From Lactobacillus crispatus (GTDB taxonomy: Bacteria > Bacillota > Bacilli > Lactobacillales > Lactobacillaceae), in assembly GCF_018987235.1 (NCBI RefSeq), contig NZ_CP072197.1, positions 1,488,001-1,552,000 on the forward strand: a DNA stretch of 64,000 nt. The letters are read 5' to 3'. How positions within the stretch are numbered: the first letter of the stretch is position 1; each line of letters opens with the position of its first letter. Below, piece by piece: positions 12,182 through 55,172 of this stretch. The notes beneath the pieces were generated by a model that did not search any database, was not told the origin of the DNA, and saw only the letters and a list, made by a program, of their open reading frames with translations. The position numbers and the translations under genes are program-made.

Positions 12182-12196
12182 AGTAGTGCACCCCTC

Positions 12197-12215: not shown

Positions 12216-12344
12216 TATACTACTAAATCAATGGAATCAACCTATATAAGAGTAATATTTAGAAAATTATTTACTCACCACTTGTTCAATAAATTACTAA
12301 CTGCTTTGCAATCCTCATATCAAATTTTGCATTTTTGATATTTT

Positions 12345-13805
12345 TTAACGATCTAATTCCTGTTCACCTTTTTGAATAGCAATTTCTTTTGCTTTTTCAT
12401 TGGTCAGCGAACTGTTTACTGTAGCAACATGTGGCTTGCTAGTTTGCACTTCTTTATCATCAAGCAATTTAGACTTTTCTTGATTTTTTTCAATTTCATT
12501 TTGTAAATTGTCGGTTAACTTGCTATAGTTGCCATCTGCTGTCCAGCACTGCGTTTTATTAAATGCATCATCCAAATTTCTAACTGTATCTATTGTCATA
12601 CTTTTTTCGATTTTTCTTAGTGCCGTCAATTCGGTCTTAAAATTAGTTCCATTAGTCTCATTGTCAGTAACTTCTTGCTCCATTTTTTCTTTTTGCACAT
12701 ACCATTGCGAGTGTTCAGGAGTATCTAAGAAGTTTTCCTTGACAATTTGACCCAATTTTTCTTGTTCTTTTTCGAGTAACTTATCGGTACTATTAGTTAG
12801 TGTCTTAGTAGCTGAACCAACATGCGTCAAAATTTGCCCTTTTACCCCACTTGGTAACTCATTAAACTTTTGTCCGTTGCTTGTCCAATTAGCTATATAA
12901 TCAACTGTCTCTTGCTTAACATCAATTCCATAATGAGAACAATAAAGATAACTTGTAAGCTCCGCTTGCATCTCTTTTAATTCTCTAGGCAGGCCCTTTT
13001 CTTGTTTTTGGCTATTATGTAGCTGTGCATGTCCCAATTCATGAGCAAGCACTGATACATTCTCCGTTGAAGTGTTGTATCCATTTAACACAATTTCGTT
13101 AGTAGCCCTGTTAAAGTATCCCTTAGCATTTTGCGGATCCTTATATTTATCCCGAATATCTGCATTAAATGGGTCATAAGTAATGACTGGCATTTTCATG
13201 TCATTAGCTACACTTCTTAATCCATTCTCTAAGGAGTCAATCTGTCCTGGATTCTTCATATTAAAATCTTGGTGTCTATTAGGGTAAAGTTCTGGGTATT
13301 TTTCCTTTGGCATATTGGTTTGTGGAGCATCGAATACAGTGCCAATCTTATAAAAAGTTTTTTGGTAAGTTTCTATATTACCCGCCTCAATTTTTTGTTT
13401 TTCGTCTTTAGTGGCAGTCTTTAAGTTAGCTAATTCTTTGTTGCCATCCTTATTTTTACGATAGAAAACTGTAGCTTTAGTAGGAACAAATATTTTAATT
13501 CCTTTTTCACCTTTGTTGACCTTATAGCCCATGCTTTTAAACTTTGCAAATGATCCCACCGCAGTCGCACCTGGGCGCTGCATCTGAATCATCATTGCAT
13601 TTCTTGAGGAATAGTTATGAAACTTATCCATAAAATCAAGCATTTCTACAACTTTCTCTGGTGATTGAGTATAATTATCTACTTCTTTAAGTAGTCCATT
13701 TTTTAAATCCTCAACGGTTTGAGTATGTTTCTTTTTCCAAGCTTTACGGTCAAAAGTCTTTCTAGGTCGTCTTTCAGACTTTAAAGCATTTTTATCCATA
13801 TCCAT
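12345..13805 (-). CDS. ArdC-like antirestriction protein with metallopeptidase domain
   Basis: 486 residues. Residues about 15-130 match the ArdC N-terminal ssDNA-binding domain (SSRNAMMIQMQRPGATAVGS, followed by GYKVNKGEKGIKIFVPT). A zinc metallopeptidase domain contains VLAHELGHAQLH (HExxH, about residue 255). The remainder is helical and charged. ArdC of plasmid pSa protects incoming single-stranded DNA from restriction and is carried into the recipient. The C-terminus ends GEQELDR, a tail shared with neighbouring proteins. The frame is open upstream to the stop of the preceding gene, without another ATG. No good Shine-Dalgarno is seen, so coupling to the upstream gene is possible. Confidence 0.82.
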   Translation of the reverse strand: MDMDKNALKSERRPRKTFDRKAWKKKHTQTVEDLKNGLLKEVDNYTQSPEKVVEMLDFMDKFHNYSSRNAMMIQMQRPGATAVGSFAKFKSMGYKVNKGEKGIKIFVPTKATVFYRKNKDGNKELANLKTATKDEKQKIEAGNIETYQKTFYKIGTVFDAPQTNMPKEKYPELYPNRHQDFNMKNPGQIDSLENGLRSVANDMKMPVITYDPFNADIRDKYKDPQNAKGYFNRATNEIVLNGYNTSTENVSVLAHELGHAQLHNSQKQEKGLPRELKEMQAELTSYLYCSHYGIDVKQETVDYIANWTSNGQKFNELPSGVKGQILTHVGSATKTLTNSTDKLLEKEQEKLGQIVKENFLDTPEHSQWYVQKEKMEQEVTDNETNGTNFKTELTALRKIEKSMTIDTVRNLDDAFNKTQCWTADGNYSKLTDNLQNEIEKNQEKSKLLDDKEVQTSKPHVATVNSSLTNEKAKEIAIQKGEQELDR

Positions 13806-13865
13806 TTTATCTTTAACTTGACCTGATACTAATTCTGGTTTTGATTTTTGAAGGCGATCAAGATA

Positions 13866-14420
13866 TTATGACTGAAGTGAAATATCATCATTAAGACTCG
13901 ATATCTCTTTATCAGTTAATGGTGCTGCCCAATCAGAAGTAAAACTAGATTTATTCCAATCTACATCGGCTAAAGTTCCACTTTCTTTTTCACTATCAAT
14001 AACTTTTTGAGTTAGGGGCTTAATACCATTTCGATTAATCGTGTGCCATTGATAATTTCCTTCAGCGCTTGGTGAAAAAAGATAATGATACTCTACATCT
14101 GAATTAAGGTACTTACCGTCATTCTTTGATATATCGTTAATCATCGCAGATAAGTCATGATACTGTTTTCTAACAGGATCATCGATTCTTTGTCCATTAG
14201 AATTATATTCATCCATAAGTTTAGTAGCAGCTGTAGGATTTTCTGGAATATGGTTATCGTTATAGTTCCCTGTTTCAATTAACTTTTTGGCATCGTCTAA
14301 AGTACGATAATTATCTAGTAAATTTTGTCCTGTGAAAGTAAGTCCACCATCCATATGAAAATACTGAGTAGTAACTGAACCATTTGGATTTAAAATTGAT
14401 ACATTTGATCGTGTTGACAT
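13866..14420 (-). CDS. Hypothetical ICE protein, 184 residues (begins STRSNVSI)
   Basis: I do not recognise a characterised family. The N-terminus (STRSNVSILNPNGSVTTQYFHMDGG) is compact and the rest hydrophilic, with no signal or membrane segment. The start is supported by AAAGGAAAAATT. A terminator hairpin lies immediately upstream. The gene is in frame with the ArdC-like ORF: after its TAA stop the frame continues Y-L-D-R and stays open to the next start. It belongs to the cargo-like gene set between relaxase and topoisomerase. Confidence 0.7.
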   Translation of the reverse strand: MSTRSNVSILNPNGSVTTQYFHMDGGLTFTGQNLLDNYRTLDDAKKLIETGNYNDNHIPENPTAATKLMDEYNSNGQRIDDPVRKQYHDLSAMINDISKNDGKYLNSDVEYHYLFSPSAEGNYQWHTINRNGIKPLTQKVIDSEKESGTLADVDWNKSSFTSDWAAPLTDKEISSLNDDISLQS

Positions 14421-14442
14421 AATTTTTCCTTTCTAAGAAAAC

Positions 14443-14469
14443 AAAAAAGACGCTTCATAATGAAGTGTC
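14443..14469 (-). terminator. Leader terminator before the 184-residue gene
   Basis: GACACTTCA-TTA-TGAAGCGTC followed by TTTTTTG on the minus strand ends about 10 bases before the ribosome site of the gene starting at 14420. Confidence 0.7.
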
Positions 14470-14575
14470 CTGACTACATACAAGTTATTTAGTTTTTACT
14501 ACTATCACCTTCTTTCTAGTAATTTTAAATTTACACGTTTCTGCTGAAGATAATTTACTGTCTTAGCTGAGAATA

Positions 14576-14619
14576 AAAAACGCTGAAGTTTTGATAATTC
14601 AATGATTTCAGCGTTTTTT
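14576..14619. terminator. Bidirectional terminator after the Fic gene
   Basis: A stem of AACGCTGAA with TTCAGCGTT is flanked by A6 and T6, so it works in both directions. It lies about 40 bases past the Fic stop. Confidence 0.7.
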
Positions 14620-14656
14620 ATACCATCTATTTAAGCCTTGGTGCGATTCTTTAATG

Positions 14657-15439
14657 TTACCTATCTAATTCTTGATTTTGGTAGAATGATTTAATTCTTT
14701 TAGTTTTTAGGTCATTAATGTCAATATCTTTTTGCGAAATTTCGTTGCTCAAATGATACGCAACTTCGTTCTTGCTAGGTAAAGTTTCTATCATTCGGTC
14801 CAAAGCTTTGTCTTCTTGTTCTCTAGTATCTGCACGATAAAATCTCATGAGGCTAATCATAAATTCAGCGTGGTCTATGTTGTCAAAAGGAAGGGTTAAA
14901 TAATCTCTGGTTTCCCAGGTATCTCGAGCAGAGTTTGCGGCAATTAGCGCTGTTCTTTTATTTCCGTCCTGGAATGGTTGAAGCTTGGATAAGCTTGCAA
15001 ATACTCTCCACGCATCTTTAGTAGTCTGTTTAGACGAGTTGTATTGTTCAATTATTTCATCTAAGTCTTCGGGGTAGACGTTTTCTGGAGCAAAGTATGC
15101 ACCTTTAGCTGTGCCTTTAGGGTCTGTGATAATGACAATTGCGTCGTCTGGATTATAACTTGCATGTCTTAAGCGCCCTGGAATACTTGGGTCTTCTTCT
15201 TCGCTATGGGTAAAGGCTTTATTAATTTCAATAATTCCTTGTCTTGTAAATCCGAATTTCTTTGCTGCAGCTATGCCATCTAAAGCATCTTTTAAGATGG
15301 CACCATCGTGGTGTTGATGTACAAGCTTAGATAGGTCATTAAGATCTAAGGCTCTTTTTGTTTGCAACACAGTACTACTGTAGTCATTCATACTACCAAA
15401 AGAGACTATGAAGTTTGCAAGGTCTAGGTTTTCACTCAT
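14657..15439 (-). CDS. Fic-domain protein lacking the catalytic histidine
   Basis: 260 residues, predicted soluble. The Fic motif is LQPFQDGNKRTALIAAN (residues about 153-169): the normally invariant His of H-P-F-x-D-G-N is Gln154 (codon CAA). The rest of the motif, including Asp, Gly-Asn and Arg, is kept. Fic enzymes transfer AMP or other phosphate-containing groups using that His, so this protein is either inactive, regulatory or altered in chemistry. The C-terminus ends YQNQELDR, shared with the ArdC-like protein. The Fic protein VbhT is a known conjugative T4SS substrate. Terminators on both sides make it a single-gene unit. Confidence 0.85.
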   Translation of the reverse strand: MSENLDLANFIVSFGSMNDYSSTVLQTKRALDLNDLSKLVHQHHDGAILKDALDGIAAAKKFGFTRQGIIEINKAFTHSEEEDPSIPGRLRHASYNPDDAIVIITDPKGTAKGAYFAPENVYPEDLDEIIEQYNSSKQTTKDAWRVFASLSKLQPFQDGNKRTALIAANSARDTWETRDYLTLPFDNIDHAEFMISLMRFYRADTREQEDKALDRMIETLPSKNEVAYHLSNEISQKDIDINDLKTKRIKSFYQNQELDR

Positions 15440-15513
15440 TTGTTCTCACTTACTTTCCATTTAGTTAGATTACTTACAATTTTAGCACTATTTAATTAAT
15501 AATCCTTGTTTTT

Positions 15514-15632
15514 GGAGCGGCACATACGCAAGCGGTATGTGCTTCTTTTTTACATTAAATTAGCAGTTAGTTTTTGATTAGCTGCTCTTTCTTATTATTT
15601 ATCTTTCTAATCTTTGATCTCTTCTTCGCATA
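15514..15632. repeat. Duplicated 3'-end module, copy A
   Basis: It matches 16122-16240: a hairpin CACATACGCAAGCGGTATGTG with a T run, a second hairpin AGCAGTTAG...TAGCTGCT, then the 3' coding end of a protein finishing D-Q-x-L-E-R. Copy B follows the Toprim gene and copy A follows the 31-codon ORF. Confidence 0.75.
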
Positions 15633-15694
15633 ATATGATATCCATGAGGTATATATTTAACCTGCTTATTCAAAGTTTGTTCTAATCTCTTCAC
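15599..15694 (-). CDS. 31-residue ORF ending RRRDQRLER
   Basis: A small ORF with a good ribosome site (AAAGGAG 7 bases before GTG 15694). The sequence begins MKRLEQTLNKQ and ends RRRDQRLER. The last nine residues resemble the end of the Toprim protein (LRRDQGLER), and the 3' DNA downstream is duplicated too. It is either a remnant of a duplicated cargo gene or a very small protein that is essentially a C-terminal tag. Length makes it uncertain. Confidence 0.45.
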   Translation of the reverse strand: MKRLEQTLNKQVKYIPHGYHIMRRRDQRLER

Positions 15695-16208
15695 TTTTTT
15701 TCTCCTTTACACTACAATAAATTTAATTGAAGAAGCAATTTTCAAATTAAGGTTTTGAATTTTCAATTCAGGTGGCTCGCTGCCTTGTCGTATGGCAAAA
15801 GAGAGCGTAGTGCATTGCTTTTCAAAAAGTCCTTCGATGTTTGGAGGGACTTTTCTTTTACACTTTTTCTTATTGAATATGTGTTAAAAAAAGTTTAAGA
15901 ATAGCAGTAGAAATTAAGGATCATTACTTGATCATGTTGCCCACTGCCTTGACGATATGCTAGTCAGAATGTCTATTATTCATTAATTTATCCTTTCATG
16001 TTACAATGTAGGTAAAGATCACAGTGCAAATTAAAGAGTTGTATTTACAACTTGGCTGCCTACTACCTTAGCGATATGCTAGCTTAAAGAAGGCGAGGAA
16101 TAGATCAGTGAGACTCATTAAAGAGCGGCGCATACGGAAAGCGGTATGTGCTTCTTTTTTTGCATTAAATTAGCAGCTAGTCACTGACTAACTGCTTTTT
16201 CTATATGC
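15695..16208. other. Non-coding region with three imperfect 22-bp repeats
   Basis: No convincing gene. Three copies of a GCC-(N)-CT-CCTT-CGATATGC-type sequence occur at 15774-15796, 15939-15960 and 16058-16079; the last two are GCCCACTGCCTTGACGATA... and GCCTACTACCTTAGCGATA.... A terminator lies at 15824-15856. Spacing (about 165 and 119 bp) and position before small ORFs suggest repeated regulatory leaders or protein-binding sites. I cannot say which. Confidence 0.55.
15824..15856. terminator. Intrinsic terminator in the non-coding region
   Basis: AAAAGTCC(C)TCC ... GA(A)GGACTTTTT hairpin with T runs on both strands, between two of the 22-bp repeats and upstream of the 31-codon ORF. Confidence 0.65.
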
Positions 16209-16240
16209 TTATCTTTCTAATCCTTGGTCTCTTCTCAAAT
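16122..16240. repeat. Duplicated 3'-end module, copy B
   Basis: Partner of 15514-15632; it includes the last codons of the Toprim gene and two downstream hairpins. The T run after the first hairpin is on the plus strand, opposite to local transcription. Confidence 0.75.
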
Positions 16241-17297
16241 AAGCCGATCGCTTTTCAAATTCTTGTCCTGGTAATGTTCTGGTTGTATGCTTAGATTTTT
16301 GTTTTCCTTGTTGCATTTTCCGAAAAGCTTTTAAGGTGTCATTCCAATCTTTACCTAATTTTTCACTAGGTTTACAGTATTTAACTTTAGGAAATTTAGA
16401 TTGAATATCTTTAACAAATCTTTTTCCAGCTTCATCATTATCTACACCTAAACCTACACTTTTAAGAATTCGACCTTCTTTTTGTAATTGTGCTGCTGTT
16501 TGTGTTATATACGAGTCAAACACTTCTTTTTTAAGGCCATCCATCGAAACAAACCTAGTATTTTTCATTCCACCCTTTACTTTTACCTTAGACAAGTCAA
16601 AGAAACTAATTGCATCAATTGGTGATTCAAAAAATCTAATATTTTCTGGAGTTTTTCCATTCATACCTGGTGAATCGAATGAAAAACCATATCCCTTGGT
16701 AGAATTTTTTTCAATCATTTTGAGGGTTCCTCTTCTACCATATTTTTGATGATTAATTTTTGTACCTTGTTTTGATACTCCTTTAACTTGTCGTCTATCT
16801 TGAGGATCAAGCCACAAAAAAAGTGCGTTACCCAATTTATCTTGTGCAAGCACTTTGTCTCTATGTAATTGATCTATAGTTTGACTCGAAATTCCACGTT
16901 GATTGTGCAAGTATCCCCATACTCGATTAATTTTATTTTCTGAATCTATTTGATTTTTATCAAACTTGAAGGATTCTTTTTGGACCTGATAAACTTTGCC
17001 ATCACCTACTCCACTAGTTAACACCTTATCCATTGCCTTTAGGAATTTCTCTTTTTCATTTAAATTGCTACCTGACAATTCATACAATGTAGAAAAGCTT
17101 AATGCACCTTTTCCATGAACTTGTCTTGAATTCCAGTAAAAAGAATTTTTGGATGGTGTAATTACCAATGAATCATGTTCTACCCCTTTAAATTCATCGC
17201 TGCCTGTTTGACGTAAATCAATTCCTGCACTCCTTGCATATTCAACAATACTTGCAGAATTTGCTGCTTTAATTTGTTCTTTTGTAAAAGCAAGCAT
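16209..17297 (-). CDS. DUF3991/Toprim primase-like protein
   Basis: 362 residues. The N-terminus (SIVEYARSAGIDL) and the central DUF3991-type region lead to a Toprim fold with GLGVDNDEAGKRF (D-x-D, about residue 285). Such proteins in mobilisation regions are thought to act as primases or DNA-processing enzymes during conjugative transfer; plasmid primases can be exported into the recipient. The C-terminus ends YLRRDQGLER. ATG 17297 is chosen because TAGGAGA precedes it; a terminator hairpin lies just upstream, between it and the relaxase gene. Confidence 0.8.
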   Translation of the reverse strand: MLAFTKEQIKAANSASIVEYARSAGIDLRQTGSDEFKGVEHDSLVITPSKNSFYWNSRQVHGKGALSFSTLYELSGSNLNEKEKFLKAMDKVLTSGVGDGKVYQVQKESFKFDKNQIDSENKINRVWGYLHNQRGISSQTIDQLHRDKVLAQDKLGNALFLWLDPQDRRQVKGVSKQGTKINHQKYGRRGTLKMIEKNSTKGYGFSFDSPGMNGKTPENIRFFESPIDAISFFDLSKVKVKGGMKNTRFVSMDGLKKEVFDSYITQTAAQLQKEGRILKSVGLGVDNDEAGKRFVKDIQSKFPKVKYCKPSEKLGKDWNDTLKAFRKMQQGKQKSKHTTRTLPGQEFEKRSAYLRRDQGLER

Positions 17298-17322
17298 TTC
17301 AATTTCTCCTATCTTTAACAAT

Positions 17323-17350
17323 AAAAAAACAAGTAGTACAAACTACTTGC
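17323..17350 (-). terminator. Terminator between relaxase and Toprim genes
   Basis: CAAGTAGTTTGTACTACTTG followed by T7 on the minus strand, about 15 bases before the Toprim ribosome site. Confidence 0.8.
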
Positions 17351-17402
17351 TAATTTCCCACCTATGCCCGACTAATATTTTTAGCCAATAATTAAGATGA
17401 TC

Positions 17403-19010
17403 TTATTCTAATTCTTGCTCAACTTCATTTTGTAATTTTTCAAACTCACGTAAATTCTTTTTAGTTTCCTTATCTGCATTTATTTTTTCGAATACTTTTT
17501 CTTGATTCGATTTTATTTTTCGGATTTGACTTTGACTAATAAAAGGCTTTTTTAAATAATTGTGTCTTTTGAAAGACTTTTTAGACTTTGCACGCAAATG
17601 TGGTCTATATGAATCATCTAATTTTGACTTTTGTTCTGCTGCATCCTTCCGAATTTCTTTTAATGCAGATTGAATGTAGTCATTTGGATCAACTTTATCT
17701 TTAAAACTGATCCTGTGTCTTTGATTGTGGTTTGCTTCCTTATCGATTTTTCTTAAGTCAGCAAGCAACGCATTACCATTTCTTGCATAAATACCTTCTT
17801 TGCCATACAGTTGGTTGATTGCATAATTTTTATTTTCACGTTTACTTTTACCGTATAAAGCTTGTCGGTCATCCTGCATTTTCCAAACTAAATCTTTATA
17901 TCTTTGAAAGTCGGAATTATCCTTTAACAATTCATCAACCAAATGATCCGACATTTTTTGTTGGCTTTTATCTAATTTGTTGTAAAACCATTCTCTTCTT
18001 GACTCAGGCAATGCTCTAACAAATTGATTTATCTCTGCTTGAAAAGTTGGCTGTTCAACTTGACTAGTCAAATTAACCTGAATTGCTTCTCTAATAGCTT
18101 GACGTCTCTGAGATAATTCTTTAGTCATCTCTGAAGAACCAATCAGTTCATTTGCAAAACCACTTTTCATATGATCAATTATTTTTTGTGGTCGCCTACC
18201 CTTAGGTTGACTAATCCCTTCACGGTTTATAATTTTTCTTCTTGGGTCTTTCTCAACTGTTGCAATGTGAATATGAACATTATCAGTATTTCTATGAATG
18301 GAAGCCACCCAGTACATCTCATTTAATGGTGGATCCATTTCCTTTTGAAAAATACTCTGCATTTTTTTAGTTGCCTTTTGTAGTTCTTCCTCATTTAATA
18401 TTCCAGTTGTACTAGATAAAATCCCCTTCTTTTTTAAAAAACTATTATCAAAACTAACAACATCTTGCCACAAGACAGAATTATTCTCTTGTCCTTCATT
18501 TAATTGCTCACGAATATAATCTAAATCTTTCAACTGAACAATATCTTTGTCAGAGCTAAATACTCCATCTAAAACTTTTTCTTTGGTTGGATGAATTTCA
18601 CTCAGCTTACTTGCAGCTTGCCCTATTCTTTCCAATTCAGTTTGTTCTTTGGTATTTAGTCCCGTTTCGTTCTTTTTCTGATTTAATGCATCAATTCGTA
18701 CCATATACCCAAGATACTTATCAAATTCCTTATCATTCAAATCAAAAAAATTTCTCTTTTCCATTAACTTTTCAGCAGCTGCTTCTCGTTCAGAATGTTC
18801 TTCACTTTTTACTCTAGTAAAGTTGTTTTCCTGATTTAATTTTCTTACTTGTTTTTTAACTCGACTTAATTCATCTTTTTCTTCTGCAGTTAAAAATTCT
18901 TTTTCTTCTAATGCTTCTTTTCTGGCTATATATCCAACGTAACGTCCAAAAGCTTTTCGTGAACTCGGCACAGAAAATTTTGAAGTTAAAATTATAGCTG
19001 GTCGTCCCAA
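17403..19010 (-). CDS. MobP-type relaxase
   Basis: 535 residues. The N-terminus (PAIILTSKFSVPSSRKAFGRYVGYIARKEAL) and the HxH metal motif in NTDNVHIHIATVE (about residue 245) mark a MobP-family relaxase of the kind common in Firmicute elements. A helical, charged C-terminal half follows. It nicks oriT, stays attached to the T-strand and pilots it through the coupling protein. It lies downstream of three small accessory genes and the candidate oriT, a typical order. GGAGG precedes the start. The C-terminus ends EVEQELE, close to the Q-x-L-(D/E)-R tail of its neighbours. Confidence 0.88.
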   Translation of the reverse strand: MGRPAIILTSKFSVPSSRKAFGRYVGYIARKEALEEKEFLTAEEKDELSRVKKQVRKLNQENNFTRVKSEEHSEREAAAEKLMEKRNFFDLNDKEFDKYLGYMVRIDALNQKKNETGLNTKEQTELERIGQAASKLSEIHPTKEKVLDGVFSSDKDIVQLKDLDYIREQLNEGQENNSVLWQDVVSFDNSFLKKKGILSSTTGILNEEELQKATKKMQSIFQKEMDPPLNEMYWVASIHRNTDNVHIHIATVEKDPRRKIINREGISQPKGRRPQKIIDHMKSGFANELIGSSEMTKELSQRRQAIREAIQVNLTSQVEQPTFQAEINQFVRALPESRREWFYNKLDKSQQKMSDHLVDELLKDNSDFQRYKDLVWKMQDDRQALYGKSKRENKNYAINQLYGKEGIYARNGNALLADLRKIDKEANHNQRHRISFKDKVDPNDYIQSALKEIRKDAAEQKSKLDDSYRPHLRAKSKKSFKRHNYLKKPFISQSQIRKIKSNQEKVFEKINADKETKKNLREFEKLQNEVEQELE

Positions 19011-19110
19011 AAATTACCTCCTACAAATAAAAATTCTATGAAGCAAGTTGATTAATTATTTTGCTCTTTCAATTTTAAAAGCCGTAGAATCGCAATCTCA
19101 GCATCAAAAC

Positions 19111-23189: not shown

Positions 23190-24650
23190 TTAATACCAGG
23201 TATGTTTCATCCAGAATTTTTGTGCATTACGCCATGAACCATATCTGCCTTTTACATATTTATTTGCTACCCTTGTTTGATTCTTATGACTGTAATCACC
23301 ATTAAGATATTCTCTCTTTAATTGATAACGTCCATAAACACTTGGGTTAGCTGGGTTAACTGCGTCCCATCTACCTCCAGATTCTCTCTGAACAATCCAG
23401 TCACGTGCTTCAGATTCAGTTTTTGATAAGCCATCATCTTCTTCAGATTCTGCATCATTGTTCAAACCATCTTTAATTAATTTAATTGGGTCTTTCCAAG
23501 TACCATCATCTTTGTACGCAGAGAGCTCTGCGGTAGCAAAATCTTTTTTAGTTGCACCAATGTGAACGTGAGTAATACCATGTGCATTACTTGCTAAGTG
23601 ACCTATTTTATCTCCTACTGAAACTTTGTCGCCTACCTCTACCTTGACGTATTTCAAATCTGCTTCATCAAAGCCGAATTCCTGATAAATGACATTCCAA
23701 CCATCGGAGCCTTCTACCCAGACGTACATTCCTAGACTATCTTGAGTATGTCCTTGAAATGCAATTTTCTTAACGGTTCCACCATGAATTGCCAAAATAT
23801 CTTGTCCACCATATGGAACAGTACCAAAGTCAACACCATCATGAAAGCCACCTGTTCTTGTAGATGACTTACCAAATAATTGCTCACCTGAGATTGTATT
23901 ACCTGGTCCTTTTTTAGGAATTGACTTGAATGGCCACCCCCATTTGCCGCTTATTGGCTTACAATCTTCCTCAGCTGAATTATCTGAGCCACTAGACCCA
24001 TCACCTTTAGCTAGTGATTTATTGCCTTTCAAGGCATCATATTTTTTAGCTTGAGCTTCCATACCTGCTCGGTAATCACTTTCAGCTGCGGTATAGTATC
24101 CTGCTTTTTTCATTGCATGAGCATATTGAGCAACTGTAGCATCTTTTCCTAATCCAGCTTTTTTAAAACCATTCTGAACTGTTACAGCCCACTCGGTCGC
24201 AAAATCACTTAAGTTCTTGTAGTGAACGTAATTACCACCTTCACTACCACGGCTTTCACCTTTGGTACCGATAGTGCTTCCTTCTGAATAAGTCATACCA
24301 CCAAAGTTATGATCATGCTTGGCAACGGAACTATCACCATTACCTGTTTCTTGTCCCATTTGAGCAAAAAGCAATCTAGCACTAATCCCTGTTTTTTCAT
24401 GTACAGCATCTGCTATATGCATCATAGCTGTCTGCCCATACTTAGGTGATTCAATGACACTAATTCTTCCTTCTACTACCCCTCCTTGTTCTCCTCCTGT
24501 GTCACATTCATCATCTGTTGCAGCACCCATTGCTGCAATCAAAATTACAATAAAATATACAACTGATAAGACAGCTAAAATTCCTAATAAAAAAGCGGCT
24601 AATCCAGCCCATCTTTTTGTCTGTCTTAACCGCTTAATATTTGTTATCAT
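23190..24650 (-). CDS. VirB1-like three-domain cell-wall hydrolase
   Basis: 486 residues. One membrane anchor (about 14-42) is followed by a glucosaminidase-like domain (about 80-200, FAQMGQETGNGDSS then NFGGMTY), an M23 metallopeptidase domain (about 260-385; HDGVDFG, then HVHIGA) and a C-terminal SLT-like domain (about 405-486; ESGGRWDAVNPANPSVYGRY). It should open peptidoglycan locally for the conjugation channel, like VirB1/PrgK proteins. Two domains are usual; the third, resembling aggregation-promoting/resuscitation-type muralytic domains of lactobacilli, is an addition. It shares one base with the VirB4 stop region. Confidence 0.85.
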   Translation of the reverse strand: MITNIKRLRQTKRWAGLAAFLLGILAVLSVVYFIVILIAAMGAATDDECDTGGEQGGVVEGRISVIESPKYGQTAMMHIADAVHEKTGISARLLFAQMGQETGNGDSSVAKHDHNFGGMTYSEGSTIGTKGESRGSEGGNYVHYKNLSDFATEWAVTVQNGFKKAGLGKDATVAQYAHAMKKAGYYTAAESDYRAGMEAQAKKYDALKGNKSLAKGDGSSGSDNSAEEDCKPISGKWGWPFKSIPKKGPGNTISGEQLFGKSSTRTGGFHDGVDFGTVPYGGQDILAIHGGTVKKIAFQGHTQDSLGMYVWVEGSDGWNVIYQEFGFDEADLKYVKVEVGDKVSVGDKIGHLASNAHGITHVHIGATKKDFATAELSAYKDDGTWKDPIKLIKDGLNNDAESEEDDGLSKTESEARDWIVQRESGGRWDAVNPANPSVYGRYQLKREYLNGDYSHKNQTRVANKYVKGRYGSWRNAQKFWMKHTWY

Positions 24651-26659
24651 TATTGACCACCTGCAAAAATTTCAAGTTGTCGTTCAGATGGTTTCATCTT
24701 GACTTGATATCTTTCTCTTCCTCCCATCGTGACAATTGCTTGTCCTGTCTGCAAGTCAGGAATGTTACTGTAATCTGAACTATTTAACGCTTCGCCTAAT
24801 AGACTTTTAATTTTCTTAAGTTGAGATGGATCCATACTCATTAGCCATTTGTATTGGCAAAGTTCAAATACCACCTTTAAGCTTGATAGTTGAGCTGATT
24901 CTACTGAATCGGGAACCATTTCTTCTGGTGATTGTGTTGCAAATATAATACCTGCATTAAACTTTCTCATTTCTCGTTCAAAGTTTTTAACATAATCAAC
25001 CGCAAAAATATTTTCATAATTTATGATGTTATGACATTCATCCAGGAACACATCAAAATACTGTACATCTTGACGTGTGATTTTTCCTGCCTTTAACAGA
25101 GCATTCTGTTTTCTACCATTTATCAATGCATGACTCCAAATCAAACTTAGAGCCATATACAATTGTGCCTGATAAACATTTTGGTTCATTGTTGAAATGG
25201 CTGAAGAATCAAATAGCAAAAGCTTAGTATCTGTTAAATCTCTCATTGTAGAATAGCCATCAAATAATTGACCGTAATTTTCAATCATTGATTCCAATGC
25301 TACCTTGATTTTCTCATAAGTTCTTATTCTTTCAGCTGTGAATTGATGTTGCTGATAGTACATTGGCGTAGCCAACTTTTTTAGCCAATTTAAAAACTGA
25401 CTAAAAGTTGGATATTTTTTACTATCTAAGTTAGTAATTTTTATATTTTCTTTGTTTTGTTGAAAATTTCTAGGTAATAATCCCATGTCTACATAAAATC
25501 CACGTAACAATGAATCAAATTCTTGCATTTCAATATTTGCAAAGGATCCCTTATTAATCATTTGAAATAAGATATCAACCTTAGAAATATGTTGATAAAA
25601 GCTTGATAGTTCATCAACTTTACCAGTATTTTCATCTACAGTAGTCGCCATTACTTCAAGTGGATTAATCATACCTTCTGACCCATCCAAGCTAACCACG
25701 GTTCCACCATAATGTTTAATCAAGGGAATATATTCCTTAGTTTTGTCGATCCCCCGAAAGTACATATTTCTTGCTATTGAACCTTCAACAAGCATTTTCA
25801 TTAAAGTTGATTTTCCTGCACCCATCTTCCCTAAAATCATCATGTTAAATGATCTTCTAATATTGGTTGATCTAAATTGATCAAAATAAAAGGCTCCTCC
25901 AGTTGAAGTACGACCTAACCAAACACCTCTTGGATCTTTTAAACTTTGAGCAGAAAATGGATTACCAGCACCAACCGTTAAAGCAGGAATTGGTTGTTCT
26001 GGCAATGCTGCCAAATCTTTTTCTTGTTCTGATAGGGGCAATGCCATTGACTTAAACTGCTTATCTTGCATAAACATATAAACTGCAACATTATAACCTT
26101 CACCCCGAAGTTTGCCACGAAGATTAGACACCGATTGATCTAATGCTTCAATGGTTGGAGCATAAACAAAAATTCTAGTTAGCATCAATTTAGGAATTTC
26201 ACCGCCTTGGCTTAATTCCAATGCATACTTTTCTAGTGATTGCATATCCTTTTGTGCATTTAATGCATCAGTAGCTTTTCTCGCATTAACTTGTCTATCA
26301 GCTAATTCTTCAATTGACCTGTTCAGTTGTCGCTTAATTTCATAGCCAGAATCAGTTTTTACATCAATTGTAGTTAACGTTGAATCATTCAATGCCACTT
26401 GAGTCATCCAAAGTAATAATGGATCGTTAGGATAATGAATTACCGATAAACAAGCCGCATATCCATCACTAGCAATTGCATAATTGTCTGCAAAAGTAAT
26501 CCCGCCTTGTGGCTGGACTTCTGCTAAAAATTTGGTATTATAACCATTTTTTTGCAGTTCTCTTTGCTTTTTTAAACTAGTAACCTGTCTTGGATTTAAC
26601 TTTACAGTTACTTTTTTCTTTTTATGTTTCTTTGCTTTCAATAAACTAGAAATTCGCAT
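24650..26659 (-). CDS. VirB4-family T4SS ATPase
   Basis: 669 residues. Walker A is ILGKMGAGKSTLM (about residue 273) and Walker B is VFLDECHN (about 538), with the C-terminal block ATQSPEEM of VirB4/TraC ATPases. It powers assembly and substrate transfer at the membrane. The usual N-terminal VirB4 domain appears to be supplied in part by the separate 207-residue gene just upstream (10-base gap). Confidence 0.92.
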   Translation of the reverse strand: MRISSLLKAKKHKKKKVTVKLNPRQVTSLKKQRELQKNGYNTKFLAEVQPQGGITFADNYAIASDGYAACLSVIHYPNDPLLLWMTQVALNDSTLTTIDVKTDSGYEIKRQLNRSIEELADRQVNARKATDALNAQKDMQSLEKYALELSQGGEIPKLMLTRIFVYAPTIEALDQSVSNLRGKLRGEGYNVAVYMFMQDKQFKSMALPLSEQEKDLAALPEQPIPALTVGAGNPFSAQSLKDPRGVWLGRTSTGGAFYFDQFRSTNIRRSFNMMILGKMGAGKSTLMKMLVEGSIARNMYFRGIDKTKEYIPLIKHYGGTVVSLDGSEGMINPLEVMATTVDENTGKVDELSSFYQHISKVDILFQMINKGSFANIEMQEFDSLLRGFYVDMGLLPRNFQQNKENIKITNLDSKKYPTFSQFLNWLKKLATPMYYQQHQFTAERIRTYEKIKVALESMIENYGQLFDGYSTMRDLTDTKLLLFDSSAISTMNQNVYQAQLYMALSLIWSHALINGRKQNALLKAGKITRQDVQYFDVFLDECHNIINYENIFAVDYVKNFEREMRKFNAGIIFATQSPEEMVPDSVESAQLSSLKVVFELCQYKWLMSMDPSQLKKIKSLLGEALNSSDYSNIPDLQTGQAIVTMGGRERYQVKMKPSERQLEIFAGGQ

Positions 26660-27600: not shown

Positions 27601-30315
27601 CTAATCCTTTCTTCTGCTATCTCCATGACCTAATTTGCCAATGTTGGTAGAACTTGGTGATTTAGTTTCAGCAGAGTTTTCAACTTGCTGATTGATTGTG
27701 GTCTTATCATGCTTAATTTCAGTCACCGTGTTAGTATTGCCTTGAGTTTCAACGGTTCTATTAGTGTTTGAAGGTACGCTGCTCTTCATAGCATCCTTCA
27801 CACTACTCATTCCTTGATTGCCTACATCATGAGTAGATACTTCAGTTCTGCCAGCCTTTCTTTCAATATCTACATGGTTGGTACCAGCAGTTTCAGTTAC
27901 TTTACTATGACTGTCTTGTCCCTTAAAGTCTGAAACATTGCTTAAGTGTCTACCGCCTTCACCAACTGGTTTTGGCGGTGTGGTTTGTTGATTTGAACGG
28001 TGTTGACTTGCTAACTTACTAGTGGATTTTTGAGTATCTCTCAAGCTTGGTAATTCATCGACCGCATTACTACTTGTTGGTGAGCTTGAAGAGCTATTTG
28101 CTTCACCACGCTTTGAACCTGAACCAGTAACTGAAGCACTGTTAGTTCTAGGATCATTTGCTGTTTCTTTTTTACCAGTCTTTGAACCATTCGTTGCTTC
28201 ACCAACTGTGGTATTTGGAATTTTTGCATCATTACCAGTTGTCTTAGCTCCACCTGTTGACTTAATAGAGCCGTCAGTTGAACTTTCCTTAGCAGCATTT
28301 GATTTAGGCTTGCTATCATCGGTCTTAATGCCTTGGTTTTGAATATTATCAGGTTTAACTGATGTATTCTTACCTTGGTCATTTACATTTTTAGCTGAAT
28401 CAACATTGCTTGTTGCAACTGTTTCTTTCTTGCCATCATAGTTTGGATTTCCTACAAATGAAGTATCACGTCCAATACCTGTTGGTTCTGCACTGCCACC
28501 ATTCTTTTCAGCTCTGTTTTGCATGTATGGATTATGATGTAAAGTGTTGTACTGATTATCAGTTAAACCACCATTTCTCATCATTCTAGCGGCTTCATCT
28601 TGTACAGTTTCAGATACAGCGCCAGAATTTACTGCCCTGTTCCAATCAACTGCACTGCCACCATTCTGCTTAAAGTCGCTATGAGCTGAACGAAAGGCTC
28701 TTCTTGCATAACTGCCAGCTTGTTTTGCTTCACTATTGCTTGCTCCATTTTCTTTAGCAATAGCCTTAGTAGAGCTACCAGCTTGCCAAGCTTGAGCTTC
28801 ACCAATCGCTGCCCCTGCTAACTTACCAGAACCTCTGGCAACTCCAACAGCGCCTTCAGCTAAATTTTTACCTTTACCAGCAATATATTCAGTTGCTGCA
28901 ATTCCTCCAGCAACTTTACTCCAACCTTGCTTAAGTCCAGTATCCAAACCAAAGAATTTTTGCACCTTGCTTGAACCTTCCCAAAGTGCCCAAGTTAAAG
29001 CAATCATTCCAACTGCATATAAATAAGGATTATCATGAATCTTTCCTGCATCTGATGAACTCATCCACACGGCTACAATTCTATAGAACGCTAATTCAAA
29101 GCCTTGGAATGCAATTAACAACGCTGAACTAAAAATATCTTGTACCGCAGCTTTAGTACGCTTTCCAGTTTCCAAATCAGTGGAGAAAATAATGATTGAT
29201 AATACTTGCATAATTGCCAATTCCACGAATGCTCTTACTGAAACAAAGCAAACTAGTAAGAAGGCAACTGTCATTGAAAGTAAGGCAACTACAACTGGGA
29301 AAAATTGTACTGAATATCGTTCATATCCACCGTTAAAAATTTTGAAAAAGGCAGTATTGCTTTGACTTACTTGGGTTGCATAATATCCTGAATATGCTTT
29401 TCCCTTTACATTTGATTTCGTACCAACGCCTGTAGGAGCTAATTTATAACGCAAATTGTCAGGATCCCATGCTGGTTTTTCCTTAGACTTATTTGCTTTA
29501 TTACTTAATTTCTCAGCTAAATCAGCTGAAATAGTAGTTGATAAATCGCCTGATGTTGCAGTATCAAAATCAGACTTGTTCATAGCAAATGAACCATAGT
29601 GAACATCTTTTTGTCTCTGGTCTTTAATTTCACCATTTTTATCTTTAGAAACACCTTCCCATTTGGTATTAGTATCCCCATTATTGATTTTGAAGCCACT
29701 AAAATTATTAGCTATGATTGCTAATAGGTCATTAGAATTGGCTTGTACTACCTGATATGGCAAGCTTGACGTCCCTTTATCATTATCAGCCTGTACAAAG
29801 CCTTTATATACACCTGTAGACTGATCAACCACCCAATTTGTAATTGGCTGAATATTTCCGATTAAGAACGCTGAAATTGCTAATTGCCAAACGACATTTT
29901 TTAATTGAGGAGCTTTACTTGAGGTACCAATTTTAATTCCGATCCAAGTTAAGGTTAAAATCATCAACCCTGCAGCAATTCCCATTACCCCATTAATTAA
30001 ATTAGTATTTAATCCTGTGGATTTTAAGATTCCTGAGAAATCCAAACTATCTGTTGCTAGTTCACTTGCCCAATTGGCAAATCCATAAAAGATCTTAACT
30101 ATGCCCCATTTTGTCTGATTCAAAATACGTCCCAAAAAATCATCATAATGTAAATAAGGTGCCGCATTTTGTAGAGCTTCAGTTACTTTTTGTAATTTGG
30201 CTGGATCATAATCACCTGAATTGGTTGATTTTTGCCACCAATCTACCAAACCACTAAAAATATCAAGATACTTAGGATTGATGAAACTAGTTAAATAGAA
30301 TAACCAATTTGTCAT
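27601..30315 (-). CDS. VirB6/TrbL-like polytopic channel protein with Ser/Thr/Asn-rich tail
   Basis: 904 residues. The N-terminal half has several membrane segments (about 113-130, 148-165, 345-370 and 375-440); an extracytoplasmic loop with many Ser/Asn/Lys lies between. From about 500 to the end the protein is hydrophilic and repetitive in composition (S, T, N, G), probably a disordered cytoplasmic or surface tail. Position between PrgI and the coupling protein matches VirB6/PrgH-type proteins. A terminator hairpin lies just before its ribosome site. Confidence 0.8.
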   Translation of the reverse strand: MTNWLFYLTSFINPKYLDIFSGLVDWWQKSTNSGDYDPAKLQKVTEALQNAAPYLHYDDFLGRILNQTKWGIVKIFYGFANWASELATDSLDFSGILKSTGLNTNLINGVMGIAAGLMILTLTWIGIKIGTSSKAPQLKNVVWQLAISAFLIGNIQPITNWVVDQSTGVYKGFVQADNDKGTSSLPYQVVQANSNDLLAIIANNFSGFKINNGDTNTKWEGVSKDKNGEIKDQRQKDVHYGSFAMNKSDFDTATSGDLSTTISADLAEKLSNKANKSKEKPAWDPDNLRYKLAPTGVGTKSNVKGKAYSGYYATQVSQSNTAFFKIFNGGYERYSVQFFPVVVALLSMTVAFLLVCFVSVRAFVELAIMQVLSIIIFSTDLETGKRTKAAVQDIFSSALLIAFQGFELAFYRIVAVWMSSSDAGKIHDNPYLYAVGMIALTWALWEGSSKVQKFFGLDTGLKQGWSKVAGGIAATEYIAGKGKNLAEGAVGVARGSGKLAGAAIGEAQAWQAGSSTKAIAKENGASNSEAKQAGSYARRAFRSAHSDFKQNGGSAVDWNRAVNSGAVSETVQDEAARMMRNGGLTDNQYNTLHHNPYMQNRAEKNGGSAEPTGIGRDTSFVGNPNYDGKKETVATSNVDSAKNVNDQGKNTSVKPDNIQNQGIKTDDSKPKSNAAKESSTDGSIKSTGGAKTTGNDAKIPNTTVGEATNGSKTGKKETANDPRTNSASVTGSGSKRGEANSSSSSPTSSNAVDELPSLRDTQKSTSKLASQHRSNQQTTPPKPVGEGGRHLSNVSDFKGQDSHSKVTETAGTNHVDIERKAGRTEVSTHDVGNQGMSSVKDAMKSSVPSNTNRTVETQGNTNTVTEIKHDKTTINQQVENSAETKSPSSTNIGKLGHGDSRRKD

Positions 30316-30336: not shown

Positions 30337-30370
30337 AAAAAGATAAGTAGTCATTATCGCTACTTATCTT
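30337..30370 (-). terminator. Intra-operon terminator between VirD4 and VirB6-like genes
   Basis: AAGATAAGTAG ... CTACTTATCTTTTTG on the minus strand. The 11-bp stem overlaps the end of the coupling-protein gene and ends about 10 bases before the next ribosome site. Confidence 0.8.
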
Positions 30371-33176
30371 GATAATATTCATTAAAGCTTTGGCTAAATT
30401 CCTGTGTTAACTCATTCTTTTCCTTGTTCTTATCTTCTAATTTTTTATCTTTATAGATGATATTAACAAAAGCTATTGAACTTGGTTTTTGTCCTTCAGG
30501 CACATCTTTTAATTTTATAGCCTCGTTCAATATTGCTTGTTTTGTTCCATCACTAATATCACCATCATGTTCCGTTAACCAGTTCGTGATAAATGGTGGA
30601 ATCTGATTTTCTTCTTCCTTTAAAGACTTCTTCATTTCTTGTTCTTCTTTAGCATCTTTAGTAGTTGCTTGAACATTTGCGTCACTTTGATGATATTGGT
30701 TATACGCCTGCAAAGCCAAATTTTCTTCTTCTACTACTGCATTTCCATCTTCATCTTGTTTGGTAACTTGCTCAGTCCAAGTTAACCATTTGCTCCAATC
30801 GATTTCTAATGCTTTTAAATTAATATTGGCGTGTGCATCAATCTTTTCAACTAAATCTGGATTAGTTTTAGGATTAAAGTCATCAGTTAAGAATGTATGT
30901 GCAAACGGCATTAATGTTTTTCCTGTGTTAAAAATAGGATGTGAAACTACCGCCCAGCCCCATTTATTCATTCTTGTTAAAGGTCTCAAAACTAATCTTT
31001 CACCGCCAGCTAAATGTTCTAATCGTTCTGGTAGTATCAACGGTACTTTATCTACGCTAACACTAACATTTTTGGCTAAACCATTTTGATCTTTAGAAAT
31101 ATTGCTTGTCTCAATCGTTTTATTGCCACAAGCTTCTGAAAATTCTTTGTTAGTGGCTGAATCAGTAGACATAATCAAACATTTATTCTGACAATTTTCT
31201 TTAATAACTTGTCCGTCTTCTTTGCCATACTTACTGTAGAGCTGGGCATAAGACTGGATAACTAAAGTAAATAGAATATTACGACCTGCTGAAACTGTCA
31301 TAATCTGATCCATATTCTGCAGCGGAATCATACTACCAAACTCATCAAAAATACATTGTACTCGTCTAATTGTCTTTCCACCTTGAACCAGCCGACACTG
31401 ACGTGATAATTCTGTATATAATTGATTAACAAAAATTGTAGCTAGCAAGTTGTTTGAAGCATCTGAATCTGGAATTTTCATAAAGACTGCAATTGGCTTA
31501 TCACTATAATGCATCTTAAAGTTTTCCATCTTAATTTCAGGTTTTCCTACCTGACTTACTTCAACCTTTTTAACTTTAGGATTAATCTTTAACTTAAAAG
31601 TATTCTTCAAACGCTTATGTCCTGCAATAGCTTCAATTTCAACAAAGCTTCCTGTTTTTAGATTGACATCAAAGTTGTTTTCAACAAATCCTTTTTGACT
31701 AACACGAATCTCATTCGTTTTCAGTTTTTTATTATGATTATCTCTAAAATTGATTTTAATTAACTCACCATATAGTCGTTGATCAAGCAATTGAAACTCC
31801 AAATATTTTGGAAAACCAATTGATTTCATTTCTAGTGTGTTCATACTGGTCATGCGTGAGTTTTTCGGTAAAGTGAAAATATCTAGTTTCTGTACAACAG
31901 TTGAAAAAATTGAGCCTCTTGCCTTATCACCTGAGAAATTTGTGGAACCGAATTCTTTTTTAGCAATAGATCCCTGTTCCAAATGCTTAAAGTATTCACT
32001 TAAAACGTTGTGTTGAGTATATGGATCTGATGGATTAGTATAATCTATCTGTCCTAACTGATTAACTAAATCAGCGATATTTACAAAAGTAATATATTCT
32101 GGATGGGCTTTTTTATCTCTAAAGTTTTTAGGATTCATGCAATACTCAATCAAAGCAATAATCATACCATTAACAGCTGATTGTGCGCCGTCATTAACCC
32201 ACTTGTTTTGACCTGCTTGTTTATCAAAATAAAGCGAGTAGGTAATTGAGTTAACTAATTGCATTGCTCCTTCAACATCGCCCTGCTCCCAGCTTCTAAT
32301 GATTAACTGTAGCGGATTAAATGCGATTCCTTTGTTTGGGTCATCTAAATTTAATTCATAAACATCATAGCCACGCTTCCTCAACGTATTTACAGAAGCA
32401 ACATACAGTTCTCCTTTAGGATCATTCACGACTAGTGACGATTGTTTTTCAGCCCTACTTACTAGGTCGATTTGTTCTAATATAGTAGTTTCACCTTTAC
32501 CAGACCGTGAAGTACCAACAATCAAATTATGAACTGTACTTGTATCAATGAAATAATAGCCATGTTTAGTAATAAATGGAAATTTTTGGGTTAATCCTAA
32601 TCTATTAATGTGAGCAATGGGAAACCCACCAAAACCTTTAAAGCTAGGCTTTTTAGGATCTAACCCTGGTTGACTATGATCAGGCACTTTTACATAGGTG
32701 TCTTCTAATTCCTTAACTGTAGTAAAACGGGCATTTCCCTTTTGCCCATGAGCGACTTTTTGACTTTCAAAGTGAAATTTTTGACTTAACAATCCACCAA
32801 TAATTACGCTAGCAGCAAATACCTCTAAAATTTCCATGGGCTTCAACTGTGTCTTAAAGAAATTCAAGCCAGCTAATCCCACTTTATCTAAATCGAGACC
32901 ATTCGTGAATAAGTTATAGTTTTTACTTTTAGTTTGTAACATGACATTATGGAATGCTCCTAATAACCACATTATTACTAGAAAGATAAAAATTCCTATA
33001 ACCAACGTTGTTATCAGCTTCGTATAATTAAAATTAATATTGCTAGACTGCTTGTTTTCATTTTTGGGACGATGTAATTGTCTTTCAACTTGATACAAGC
33101 CCTTTTTTACAAGATTCTTTTCCTTGTTTCTAGCATTTTTTAGATTTATTCGTGATCTTCTTTTTTTAGTACGCAT
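30360..33176 (-). CDS. VirD4/TraG-type coupling protein
   Basis: 938 residues. Two N-terminal membrane segments (about 53-75 and 110-130), Walker A GTSRSGKGETT (about residue 225) and Walker B CIFDEFGS (about 610). A region of about 100 residues (about 455-555) is inserted between the motifs. The acidic C-terminal tail (about 790-938) may bind substrates. It recruits the relaxase-DNA complex, and potentially other exported proteins, to the channel. It overlaps the upstream gene by 11 bases. Confidence 0.92.
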   Translation of the reverse strand: MRTKKRRSRINLKNARNKEKNLVKKGLYQVERQLHRPKNENKQSSNINFNYTKLITTLVIGIFIFLVIMWLLGAFHNVMLQTKSKNYNLFTNGLDLDKVGLAGLNFFKTQLKPMEILEVFAASVIIGGLLSQKFHFESQKVAHGQKGNARFTTVKELEDTYVKVPDHSQPGLDPKKPSFKGFGGFPIAHINRLGLTQKFPFITKHGYYFIDTSTVHNLIVGTSRSGKGETTILEQIDLVSRAEKQSSLVVNDPKGELYVASVNTLRKRGYDVYELNLDDPNKGIAFNPLQLIIRSWEQGDVEGAMQLVNSITYSLYFDKQAGQNKWVNDGAQSAVNGMIIALIEYCMNPKNFRDKKAHPEYITFVNIADLVNQLGQIDYTNPSDPYTQHNVLSEYFKHLEQGSIAKKEFGSTNFSGDKARGSIFSTVVQKLDIFTLPKNSRMTSMNTLEMKSIGFPKYLEFQLLDQRLYGELIKINFRDNHNKKLKTNEIRVSQKGFVENNFDVNLKTGSFVEIEAIAGHKRLKNTFKLKINPKVKKVEVSQVGKPEIKMENFKMHYSDKPIAVFMKIPDSDASNNLLATIFVNQLYTELSRQCRLVQGGKTIRRVQCIFDEFGSMIPLQNMDQIMTVSAGRNILFTLVIQSYAQLYSKYGKEDGQVIKENCQNKCLIMSTDSATNKEFSEACGNKTIETSNISKDQNGLAKNVSVSVDKVPLILPERLEHLAGGERLVLRPLTRMNKWGWAVVSHPIFNTGKTLMPFAHTFLTDDFNPKTNPDLVEKIDAHANINLKALEIDWSKWLTWTEQVTKQDEDGNAVVEEENLALQAYNQYHQSDANVQATTKDAKEEQEMKKSLKEEENQIPPFITNWLTEHDGDISDGTKQAILNEAIKLKDVPEGQKPSSIAFVNIIYKDKKLEDKNKEKNELTQEFSQSFNEYYQDK

Positions 33177-53976: not shown

Positions 53977-54059
53977 AATTCATATTAAAGCACATATAAG
54001 TAATTTATACGTAACACTTAAATAATATATAAGTAACGTAAGTGTATGAGGTAATGAAT

Positions 54060-55172
54060 ATGGCACATTTTGAAAAAAGAGGTACTAAGTGGCGCGCACA
54101 AGTATCTTGGTATAACCCTCAAGGTAAACGTCAATTTAAAACTAAACAAGGCTTTTTAACTAAATCAGCAGCTAGAAAATGGGCTAATGAAATGGAAGTT
54201 GCAAAAGACGATAATCAAATATCTAATCAAGACCCTATTTTTGCTGAGTATTTTAAAGACTGGTACGAAACCTATAAAATTCCAGGTAAATCAAATAATA
54301 CTCAAAATAGATATAAGCACATTTATGTACTACTACAACAGAATTTTGGTAAAACCAGAATTTCAAAAATCACTCGACGTTCTTACCAGAATTTTATGAA
54401 TTCGTATGGAAAAAAGCATGTTAAAGATACAGTCTATAAGACTAATGGAACAATACGGACTTGTGTAAAAGACGCAATGAGTGAAGGATTAGTTAAAATT
54501 AATTTTACTGAGCGAATAAATCTTACATGGAATGAAGAACGTTCAAGAAAGATTGAATATTTAAGCTTTAAAGAAGTCCAAAAACTTAAAAAATCACTTT
54601 TGAAAGATATTACTCCCTCCTACATAAGCCGCTACATGTTACTAACAATAATTTATACAGGAATGCGTCCAGGTGAAATTATGGTGCTAACATGGCATGA
54701 CATTGACTTTAAGAATCACACTATTAATATCTCTAAATCGTGGGACTATGATAATAATAAAATAATCAACTATGATTCTGATGAAATAAATAAAGAAACT
54801 AAAAATAGGTCATCTACTAGGATCATCAAGGTAGACCAAAATTTATTGAATATTTTAGATCAACTAAAGGTTAATCATCATGAACGACTATTCATTGGAA
54901 AGGATGGAACTATACCTTCATCAAATGCCGTAAACAAAGTTCTTAGAAAACAACTGGTAAAAAATAAGATTAAAAAAGATGGTTTTCATTTTCACAGTTT
55001 AAGACATACTCATGTAGCAATGTTACTATTTAAGGGAGTTGACTTATATTCAATAAGTAAACGACTAGGTCACTCAAATATGAGTATTACAGCTAACACC
55101 TACGCTTACATGCTAGACGAATTAAAACAACAATCTGATCAACAAATAGTAAATATTTTAGATCAAATTTAA
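54060..55172 (+). CDS. int: Tyrosine-type integrase of the ICE
   Basis: 370 residues. N-terminal AP2-like domain (MAHFEKRGTKWRAQVSW), core-binding domain, catalytic domain with Arg in GMRPGE (about 202), HSLRHTH (about 312), GHS and Tyr in NTYAYM (about 347). It integrates the element into the 3' end of ssrA, which begins 74 bp downstream. ATG 54060 has GAGGT upstream; a start at 54042 is possible. Two ATACCTTTG repeats just after the stop may be arm sites. Confidence 0.93.
   Translation: MAHFEKRGTKWRAQVSWYNPQGKRQFKTKQGFLTKSAARKWANEMEVAKDDNQISNQDPIFAEYFKDWYETYKIPGKSNNTQNRYKHIYVLLQQNFGKTRISKITRRSYQNFMNSYGKKHVKDTVYKTNGTIRTCVKDAMSEGLVKINFTERINLTWNEERSRKIEYLSFKEVQKLKKSLLKDITPSYISRYMLLTIIYTGMRPGEIMVLTWHDIDFKNHTINISKSWDYDNNKIINYDSDEINKETKNRSSTRIIKVDQNLLNILDQLKVNHHERLFIGKDGTIPSSNAVNKVLRKQLVKNKIKKDGFHFHSLRHTHVAMLLFKGVDLYSISKRLGHSNMSITANTYAYMLDELKQQSDQQIVNILDQI

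Follow-up and report, generated by a model that had tools for sequence, protein, structure and literature searches.

Introduction

Several Gram-negative type IV secretion systems (T4SSs) use short C-terminal signals, as in the Vir effectors of Agrobacterium and RalF of Legionella. According to the accessible parts of one paper, such signals can be moved to reporter proteins and occur on effectors and on one relaxase, MobA, in its C-terminal 48 residues (PMC10025392); a title in its reference list, Vergunst 2005, names positive charge as important in the Agrobacterium signal. Here we examine a likewise short C-terminal tail in Lactobacillus crispatus, on neighboring proteins encoded beside the relaxase of an apparent integrated conjugative element. 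The element lies in a stretch of 64,000 nucleotides (contig NZ_CP072197.1, positions 1,488,001 to 1,552,000), hereafter the window, to which all coordinates refer unless a locus is named; the host genome measures 2.24 Mb.

Compared with the Agrobacterium signal, the tip of this tail is mixed, with acidic residues followed by Arg, is anchored to the last residue and varies from element to element, and its hosts are Gram-positive. Taken as a whole, tips like QELDR and GLELE are acidic and lack the net positive charge of the Agrobacterium type. As described in the accessible text of two papers, Bartonella Beps carry a BID domain plus tail, an export signal common to effectors and relaxases (PMC10025392), and the XVIPCD of X-T4SS effectors, like the signal considered here, recruits to the T4SS coupling protein (PMC12624023). 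The XVIPCD is a structured domain, whereas the tail is a short tip; unlike BID systems, our proteins present only a linker and a tip, and no BID domain was detected with Pfam (E <= 0.001) in five open reading frames (ORFs) of the window locus or in 30 tail-bearing or candidate proteins. VbhT is a Fic protein, as is one of the carriers in the window.

The conjugative elements studied here also carry families of the polyvalent proteins, namely ArdC-N, MPTase, Toprim/DUF3991, PBECR4, LPD domains and DarA_C, which have been proposed to travel with DNA (Iyer et al. 2017; PMC5512222, accessible text). That text describes no C-terminal signal, and the phrases “C-terminal signal” and “secretion signal” have 0 occurrences in it. 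Gram-positive conjugation is far less known than its Gram-negative counterpart, as a December 2025 review states in its accessible parts, where one protein-exporting system is apparently the first Gram-positive effector translocator (PMC12857230). Neither that review nor PMC12624023, also from 2025, describes such a signal for Gram-positive systems in the parts accessible. More broadly, the tail was not described in the full-text literature covered, which included accessible parts of PMC5512222, PMC12624023, PMC5313138, PMC12857230 and PMC10025392, with bioRxiv preprints and most subscription papers outside coverage.

Results

Element-specific tails on unrelated proteins

The recurring feature is a short variant shared at the extreme C-terminus by several unrelated proteins of one element, with each element having its own version, and it is found in several Gram-positive elements. 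The examples below, identified by locus numbers with the prefix L, were chosen because they show sharing. In L. xujianguonis L031, the Toprim and ArdC proteins both end KDRGLER. On the plasmid of Lactobacillus sp. L033, a Toprim, three Fic and a zeta-toxin protein end GLELG, GLELE, GPELE, GPELE and GLEL after Gln-rich linkers, and its relative L124 is alike. L. gasseri L119 shows KKLER, RNLER and RGLER on proteins of 682, 828 and 145 amino acids (aa); L. johnsonii L123 shows ELDL, DLDM, GLDL and ALSM; and L185 has KAKER twice, QTKER and KAKEH. In Priestia L216, an ArdC protein ends EQELER, another protein PQEMER and the Toprim protein EQELSMNG.

In some elements the relaxase itself may take part. 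Macrococcoides L263 combines a relaxase ending EKDQMEL with Fic (EKDLEME), ArdC/MPTase (MEMEIE) and Toprim (YEMDM) proteins; Bacillus pumilus L264 pairs a GMER relaxase with an LPD25 protein ending EVER; and the Bacilli locus L281 has a TNER relaxase, ArdC SIER, Toprim EMER and further proteins ending ENER and AFER. The MobL relaxase of L280 ends GMER and the relaxase of L278 ends EQER. The resemblance between relaxase and neighbors is clear in these five loci and partial in the window. Among 54 relaxases, 4 end [LMIVFKA][DE]R and 8 end [DE]R, some of them in ends rich in Glu and Arg.

The locus in the L. crispatus window

In the window, the initial annotation had reported a shared Q-x-L-[DE]-R end on a relaxase and four otherwise unrelated neighbors, an ArdC-like, a Fic and a Toprim protein and a 31-aa ORF. 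All five C-termini were found in the minus-strand sequence, the relaxase ending EVEQELE and thus lacking the terminal Arg of the motif. The Toprim and 31-aa tails are not independent, because the last codons of the two genes, together with the DNA that follows, are 84% copies of each other. The 31-aa ORF is the remnant of a PBECR4 gene that has preserved its matching start and an end with the tail: residues 1-21 align with the beginning of the PBECR4 protein on L. gasseri plasmid p1 (76%, E = 5e-7), and the upstream DNA also aligns. The independent cases are three full-length proteins with the exact motif plus the relaxase with a truncated form.

The DNA pattern CARNNNYTRGANMGNTAR, which encodes Q-x-L-[DE]-R followed by TAA or TAG and leaves out the Leu codons CTY and the stop TGA, matched the genome four times, each time at this locus and inside a 4-kb span, which exceeds chance (reversed control, 2). 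A wider pattern that allows Phe gave seven, three of them off the locus and none of those three a Q-x-L-[DE]-R end. As a genus-wide diagnostic, the DNA pattern was rejected: 68 of 75 genomes contain a match in at least one frame, and matches to the reversed control are frequent as well.

The Fic protein is predicted with a confident core and with a predicted local distance difference test (pLDDT) score below 50 for residues 250-260. An alignment of 39 Fic sequences, comprising the window protein plus 38 of the 114 homologues, shows a conserved core and no conservation over the final ~20 residues. The family motif KLQPFQDGNKRTAL contains a Gln, invariant in 39/39, at the position where the canonical Fic motif has its catalytic His. 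The ArdC-like protein and a 184-aa ORF correspond to a single 614-aa ArdC ORF of L031 (46% identity for the 184-aa ORF, the counterpart of its N-terminal part, and 69% for the ArdC core, over the aligned parts). Both ArdC proteins end L-[E/D]-R, and BLASTP returned no alignment between their C-terminal linkers.

The fixed motif is local

The exact Q-x-L-[DE]-R end was present in 3/114 Fic and 5/55 Toprim homologues (8/169 in all), which led us to reject it as a conserved signature. Variant-like ends occur among the Fic homologues (GLDR, GLDK, GLER, HDLER) and the Toprim homologues (RGLER, HELER, QSLSR, QDMSL, GLEL, MMSR), and many homologues of both families have ends nothing like the motif. 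The exact motif was carried by 4 of 369 genes downstream of relaxases, from two elements with the window giving three, vs 0/1117 control genes (p = 0.004), and by 1/376 vs 0/368 in loci fetched later, which is not significant. Q-x-L-[DE]-R is therefore the version of this element only, and the proposal is not supported in the form tied to that exact motif.

Enrichment beside relaxases

Counts used gene calls made as simple ORFs of at least 80 aa. We took 106 loci, 86 of them with a relaxase, and retained 54 elements after removing redundant ones, defined as having 3 genes in common at 80% identity. Genome-contig loci comprised 29 of 80, chosen as Bacilli by organism title; plasmids were 20 of 120 listed rows, hand-chosen for rank and variety; loci L001-L030 and L127-L156 and eight viral-contig loci lay outside the counts. 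Downstream means up to 10 kb from the relaxase.

The class [LMIVFKA][DE]R ended 18/369 downstream genes (12 elements, with three genes from the window), vs 3/411 on the T4SS side and 1/706 on the chromosome, a difference with Fisher p = 2.5e-8 for downstream against the last two combined. Counts were 1/187 on the opposite strand and 1/117 far from the relaxase. Narrower and looser forms behaved similarly, with [LM][DE]R at 11/369 vs 2/1117 (p = 9e-6) and a form allowing up to two extra residues at 22/369 vs 16/1117 (p = 1e-5). Six of the ten chromosomal matches of the loosest motif come from a 285-aa ORF at 5054-5911, probably a transposase as judged by look, whose last 18 residues recur in 6 of 20 chromosomal stretches sampled from the host genome (L220, L221, L224, L226, L230 and L235).

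Since the class had been picked after viewing part of the loci, it was applied unchanged to 20 later-fetched loci, chosen from candidate lists, and was found in 19/376 genes vs 2/368 chromosomal genes of Bacilli (p = 1e-4). The end [DE]R alone, added after seeing these loci, occurred in 31/376 vs 3/368. Enrichment beside relaxases is supported for the class, and such tails are less common in chromosomal proteins.

End anchoring and sharing within elements

The class motif is a property of the protein end. Among 423 downstream and relaxase genes it was found 22 times at the end vs a mean of 1.7 per inner offset (3 to 59), and 1074 chromosomal genes showed no peak (3 at the end vs 3.2 inner).

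Sharing was measured on non-homologous pairs only, in 63 elements with 507 genes. The last three residues were identical in 7/1978 pairs within vs 109/122608 between elements (4.0-fold, p = 0.003), and three of the last four in 14/1978 vs 337/122608 (p = 0.002), a count of 14 that 0/300 permutations reached (maximum 12). C-terminal alignment scores of at least 22 were obtained for 16/1978 pairs within vs 135/60000 sampled between elements (p = 3e-5) and scores of at least 28 for 3/1978 vs 28/60000 (p = 0.08); a control window 30 residues inward gave no excess at 22 (1/1978 vs 58/60000). A looser all-gene test of 62 loci found 15/16889 last-three matches with 7.0 expected (p = 0.006). In a permutation anchored on the Toprim protein of 49 elements, the own element scored 13.65 vs 11.9 (p = 0.0019); its filter for Toprim homologues probably removed true partners, because the 614-aa ArdC of L173 and the 640-aa ArdC of L171 dropped out.

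Genes of the element and neighboring observations

The features of the window are collected in Table 1. On its downstream side, the relaxase gene is followed by DUF3991/Toprim, Fic, ArdC-like and topoisomerase genes. The nearest Toprim homologues have 362 aa, which fits an internal ATG of the listed ORF. A PADLOC run on 10 proteins, three of them from the window, returned for those three just two weak PDC-S04 matches, both to Fic.

Table 1. Features of the apparent conjugative element (window coordinates)
Feature	Position	Strand	Remarks
ArdC-like protein (ArdcN + zincin metallopeptidase), 486 aa	12345..13805	-	ends GEQELDR
ArdC-like tail codons QELDR	12348..12362	-	
184-aa ORF without tail	13866..14420	-	same frame as ArdC ORF, stop codon between
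Fic-fold protein, 260 aa	14657..15439	-	ends NQELDR
Fic tail codons QELDR	14660..14674	-	
31-aa ORF, remnant of a PBECR4 nuclease gene	15599..15694	-	ends RDQRLER
DUF3991/Toprim protein, 370 aa as listed	16209..17321	-	ends RDQGLER
Toprim tail codons QGLER	16212..16226	-	
MobL/MobP2 relaxase, 535 aa	17403..19010	-	ends EVEQELE
VirB4-like ATPase	24650..26659	-	AAA_10; best model under its own cut-off
pLS20_p028-family conjugation membrane protein	27601..30315	-	NF045890 197 bits, cut-off 150
VirD4-like coupling protein, CD1115 family; proposed tail reader	30360..33176	-	NF045973 289 bits, cut-off 250
Tyrosine integrase, presumed element's own	54042..55172	+	models below own cut-offs

The window also contains an RNA-like repeat, AAGGCAGYGRGCNACC, with a hairpin after it whose arms differ but remain complementary. 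The conserved core of the repeat starts at 15786, 15950 and 16069 on the minus strand of the window and at L119:5623, L123:25743, L031:11199, L178:9615 and L181:10888 elsewhere. The hairpin was found by script in seven of the eight copies and by eye in the eighth, that of L119 (GATCA/TGATC). One copy lies ~90 bases ahead of the start of the PBECR4 gene, or its remnant, in the window, L119 and L123, and the copies of L178 and L181 fall within a long ORF. A consensus fold from a MAFFT alignment predicted two pairs, none changed on both sides, and gave no support for a structure; in positions 12000-20500, which include the window copies, there was no Rfam match at E <= 1.

Two observations concern other systems. 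At L214:6989-8047, on a pLS20-type plasmid of Bacillus subtilis, a 352-aa protein encoded close upstream of VirD4 has no Pfam family and ends KVKGLER; it is a candidate cargo in a laboratory model. In the more distant Bacilli loci L267, L268, L269, L271, L272, L277 and L279, where the relaxase search gave distant MobL matches or found none, Toprim, relaxase, small toxin-like and very large proteins have ends such as CLER, CFER, KERGM, NMER, RER and ELER. These loci hint that tagging may extend to systems other than MobP2.

Discussion

We consider the tail, with a probability of roughly 0.6, to be a C-terminal recruitment or export signal for the element's own T4SS. A protein-level, end-anchored and relaxase-linked tail on non-homologous proteins, sometimes including the relaxase, is what a common recruitment signal predicts. 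This is the part of the initial proposal of a shared T4SS signal that stands; a fixed Q-x-L-[DE]-R does not. We also count in favor of the export signal that the element encodes pLS20-type T4SS components, VirD4 among them, together with a MobP2 relaxase, and that several carriers belong to the families treated by Iyer et al. 2017 in its accessible text. A VirD4 coupling protein is recognized in the window by profile match and annotated in L122, L125, L126, L213 and L214.

Under the export-signal proposal, a predicted disordered linker (one protein modeled) would end in a short motif anchored to the C-terminus, often hydrophobic-acidic-Arg, that the VirD4-type coupling protein of the element would read. 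The relaxase-DNA complex and helpers such as ArdC, Toprim primase, Fic, PBECR4, zeta-toxin and others would enter one channel, and the helpers would reach the recipient together with the DNA. Co-evolution of tail and reader would account for the different version in each element. The role of VirD4 as reader, the co-evolution and the transfer of protein are inferred.

Several results weigh against this interpretation. Most elements (42/54) have no downstream gene with the class motif, as opposed to 12/54 that do, and close Fic homologues (71-78% identical) are without the tail. Counted by protein family, the later loci reach a modest p value (7/240 vs 2/340, p = 0.03), and they include several that are related to one another. 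In the Toprim-anchored permutation most single elements show nothing, and for many of the 49 Toprim proteins no partner with a matching tail was found. Several relaxases that end in E-R have ends rich in these residues, possibly a matter of composition. Finally, a first shuffle among loci that kept homologous tails gave no excess (15 last-three matches vs 6-18 in 12 shuffles); it is uninformative because homologous tails land together, and it was replaced by the non-homologous pairs between elements.

Other explanations of the same pattern can be weighed against these data. The tail might dock the proteins to a common hub outside the export channel, in donor or recipient, such as the relaxosome, an SSB or the replication machinery, and thereby collect them on the strand being transferred. 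Among the carriers are relaxases as well as Toprim and ArdC proteins, and a disordered end-anchored peptide (again from the one modeled protein) would look alike. We regard this as possible but unlikely, given that Fic, zeta-toxin, AbiEii and PemK-like proteins without an obvious DNA role are tailed, and that annotated topoisomerases examined in L120-L126, L213, L261, L263 and L264 are without a tail. That the tail instead determines how stable the protein is, serving as degron or anti-degron, would agree with the common behavior of short C-terminal peptides; element-specific versions, at times on the relaxase too, concentrated in relaxase-adjacent genes make such a role improbable.

Likeness could also arise at the DNA level, from copied 3' gene ends or from a constraint imposed, for example, by a ribosome-binding site that overlaps the gene end. 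Copying is true of the Toprim and 31-aa pair, and the L033 tails are long and similar. As a general cause, however, both versions were rejected. In 13 elements picked for shared tails, position-matched identical residues among the last eight used the same codon in 85/157 cases vs 82.0 expected from codon usage, and because codon identity is no higher than chance, sharing is at the protein level and not from recently copied DNA. The DNA past the stops looks unrelated by eye except in the Toprim/31-aa pair, and in the window the next gene begins at least 160 bases past each full-length tailed cargo gene. Copied ends are, on this showing, even less probable than a stability signal. Least probable of all is chance or composition, with charged ends being common in plasmid proteins: ends near relaxases are indeed rich in Glu, Gln and Arg, but the same genes show the sharp excess at the end over inner offsets, and the inner-window control was negative.

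Taken at the level of the group, it is about an even bet that conjugative elements across Bacilli label their helpers, in many cases together with the relaxase, by a signal at the very C-terminus that is particular to each element and recognized by its cognate coupling protein, and that this tag predicts the protein cargo from sequence alone. Which proteins travel with the DNA in Gram-positive conjugation, and by what means they are selected, is a question that a short tag would make directly testable. The tag would turn hypothetical neighbors of relaxases into predicted cargo with anti-restriction, primase, Fic or nuclease functions, and its element-specific spelling predicts which coupling proteins would carry which cargo.

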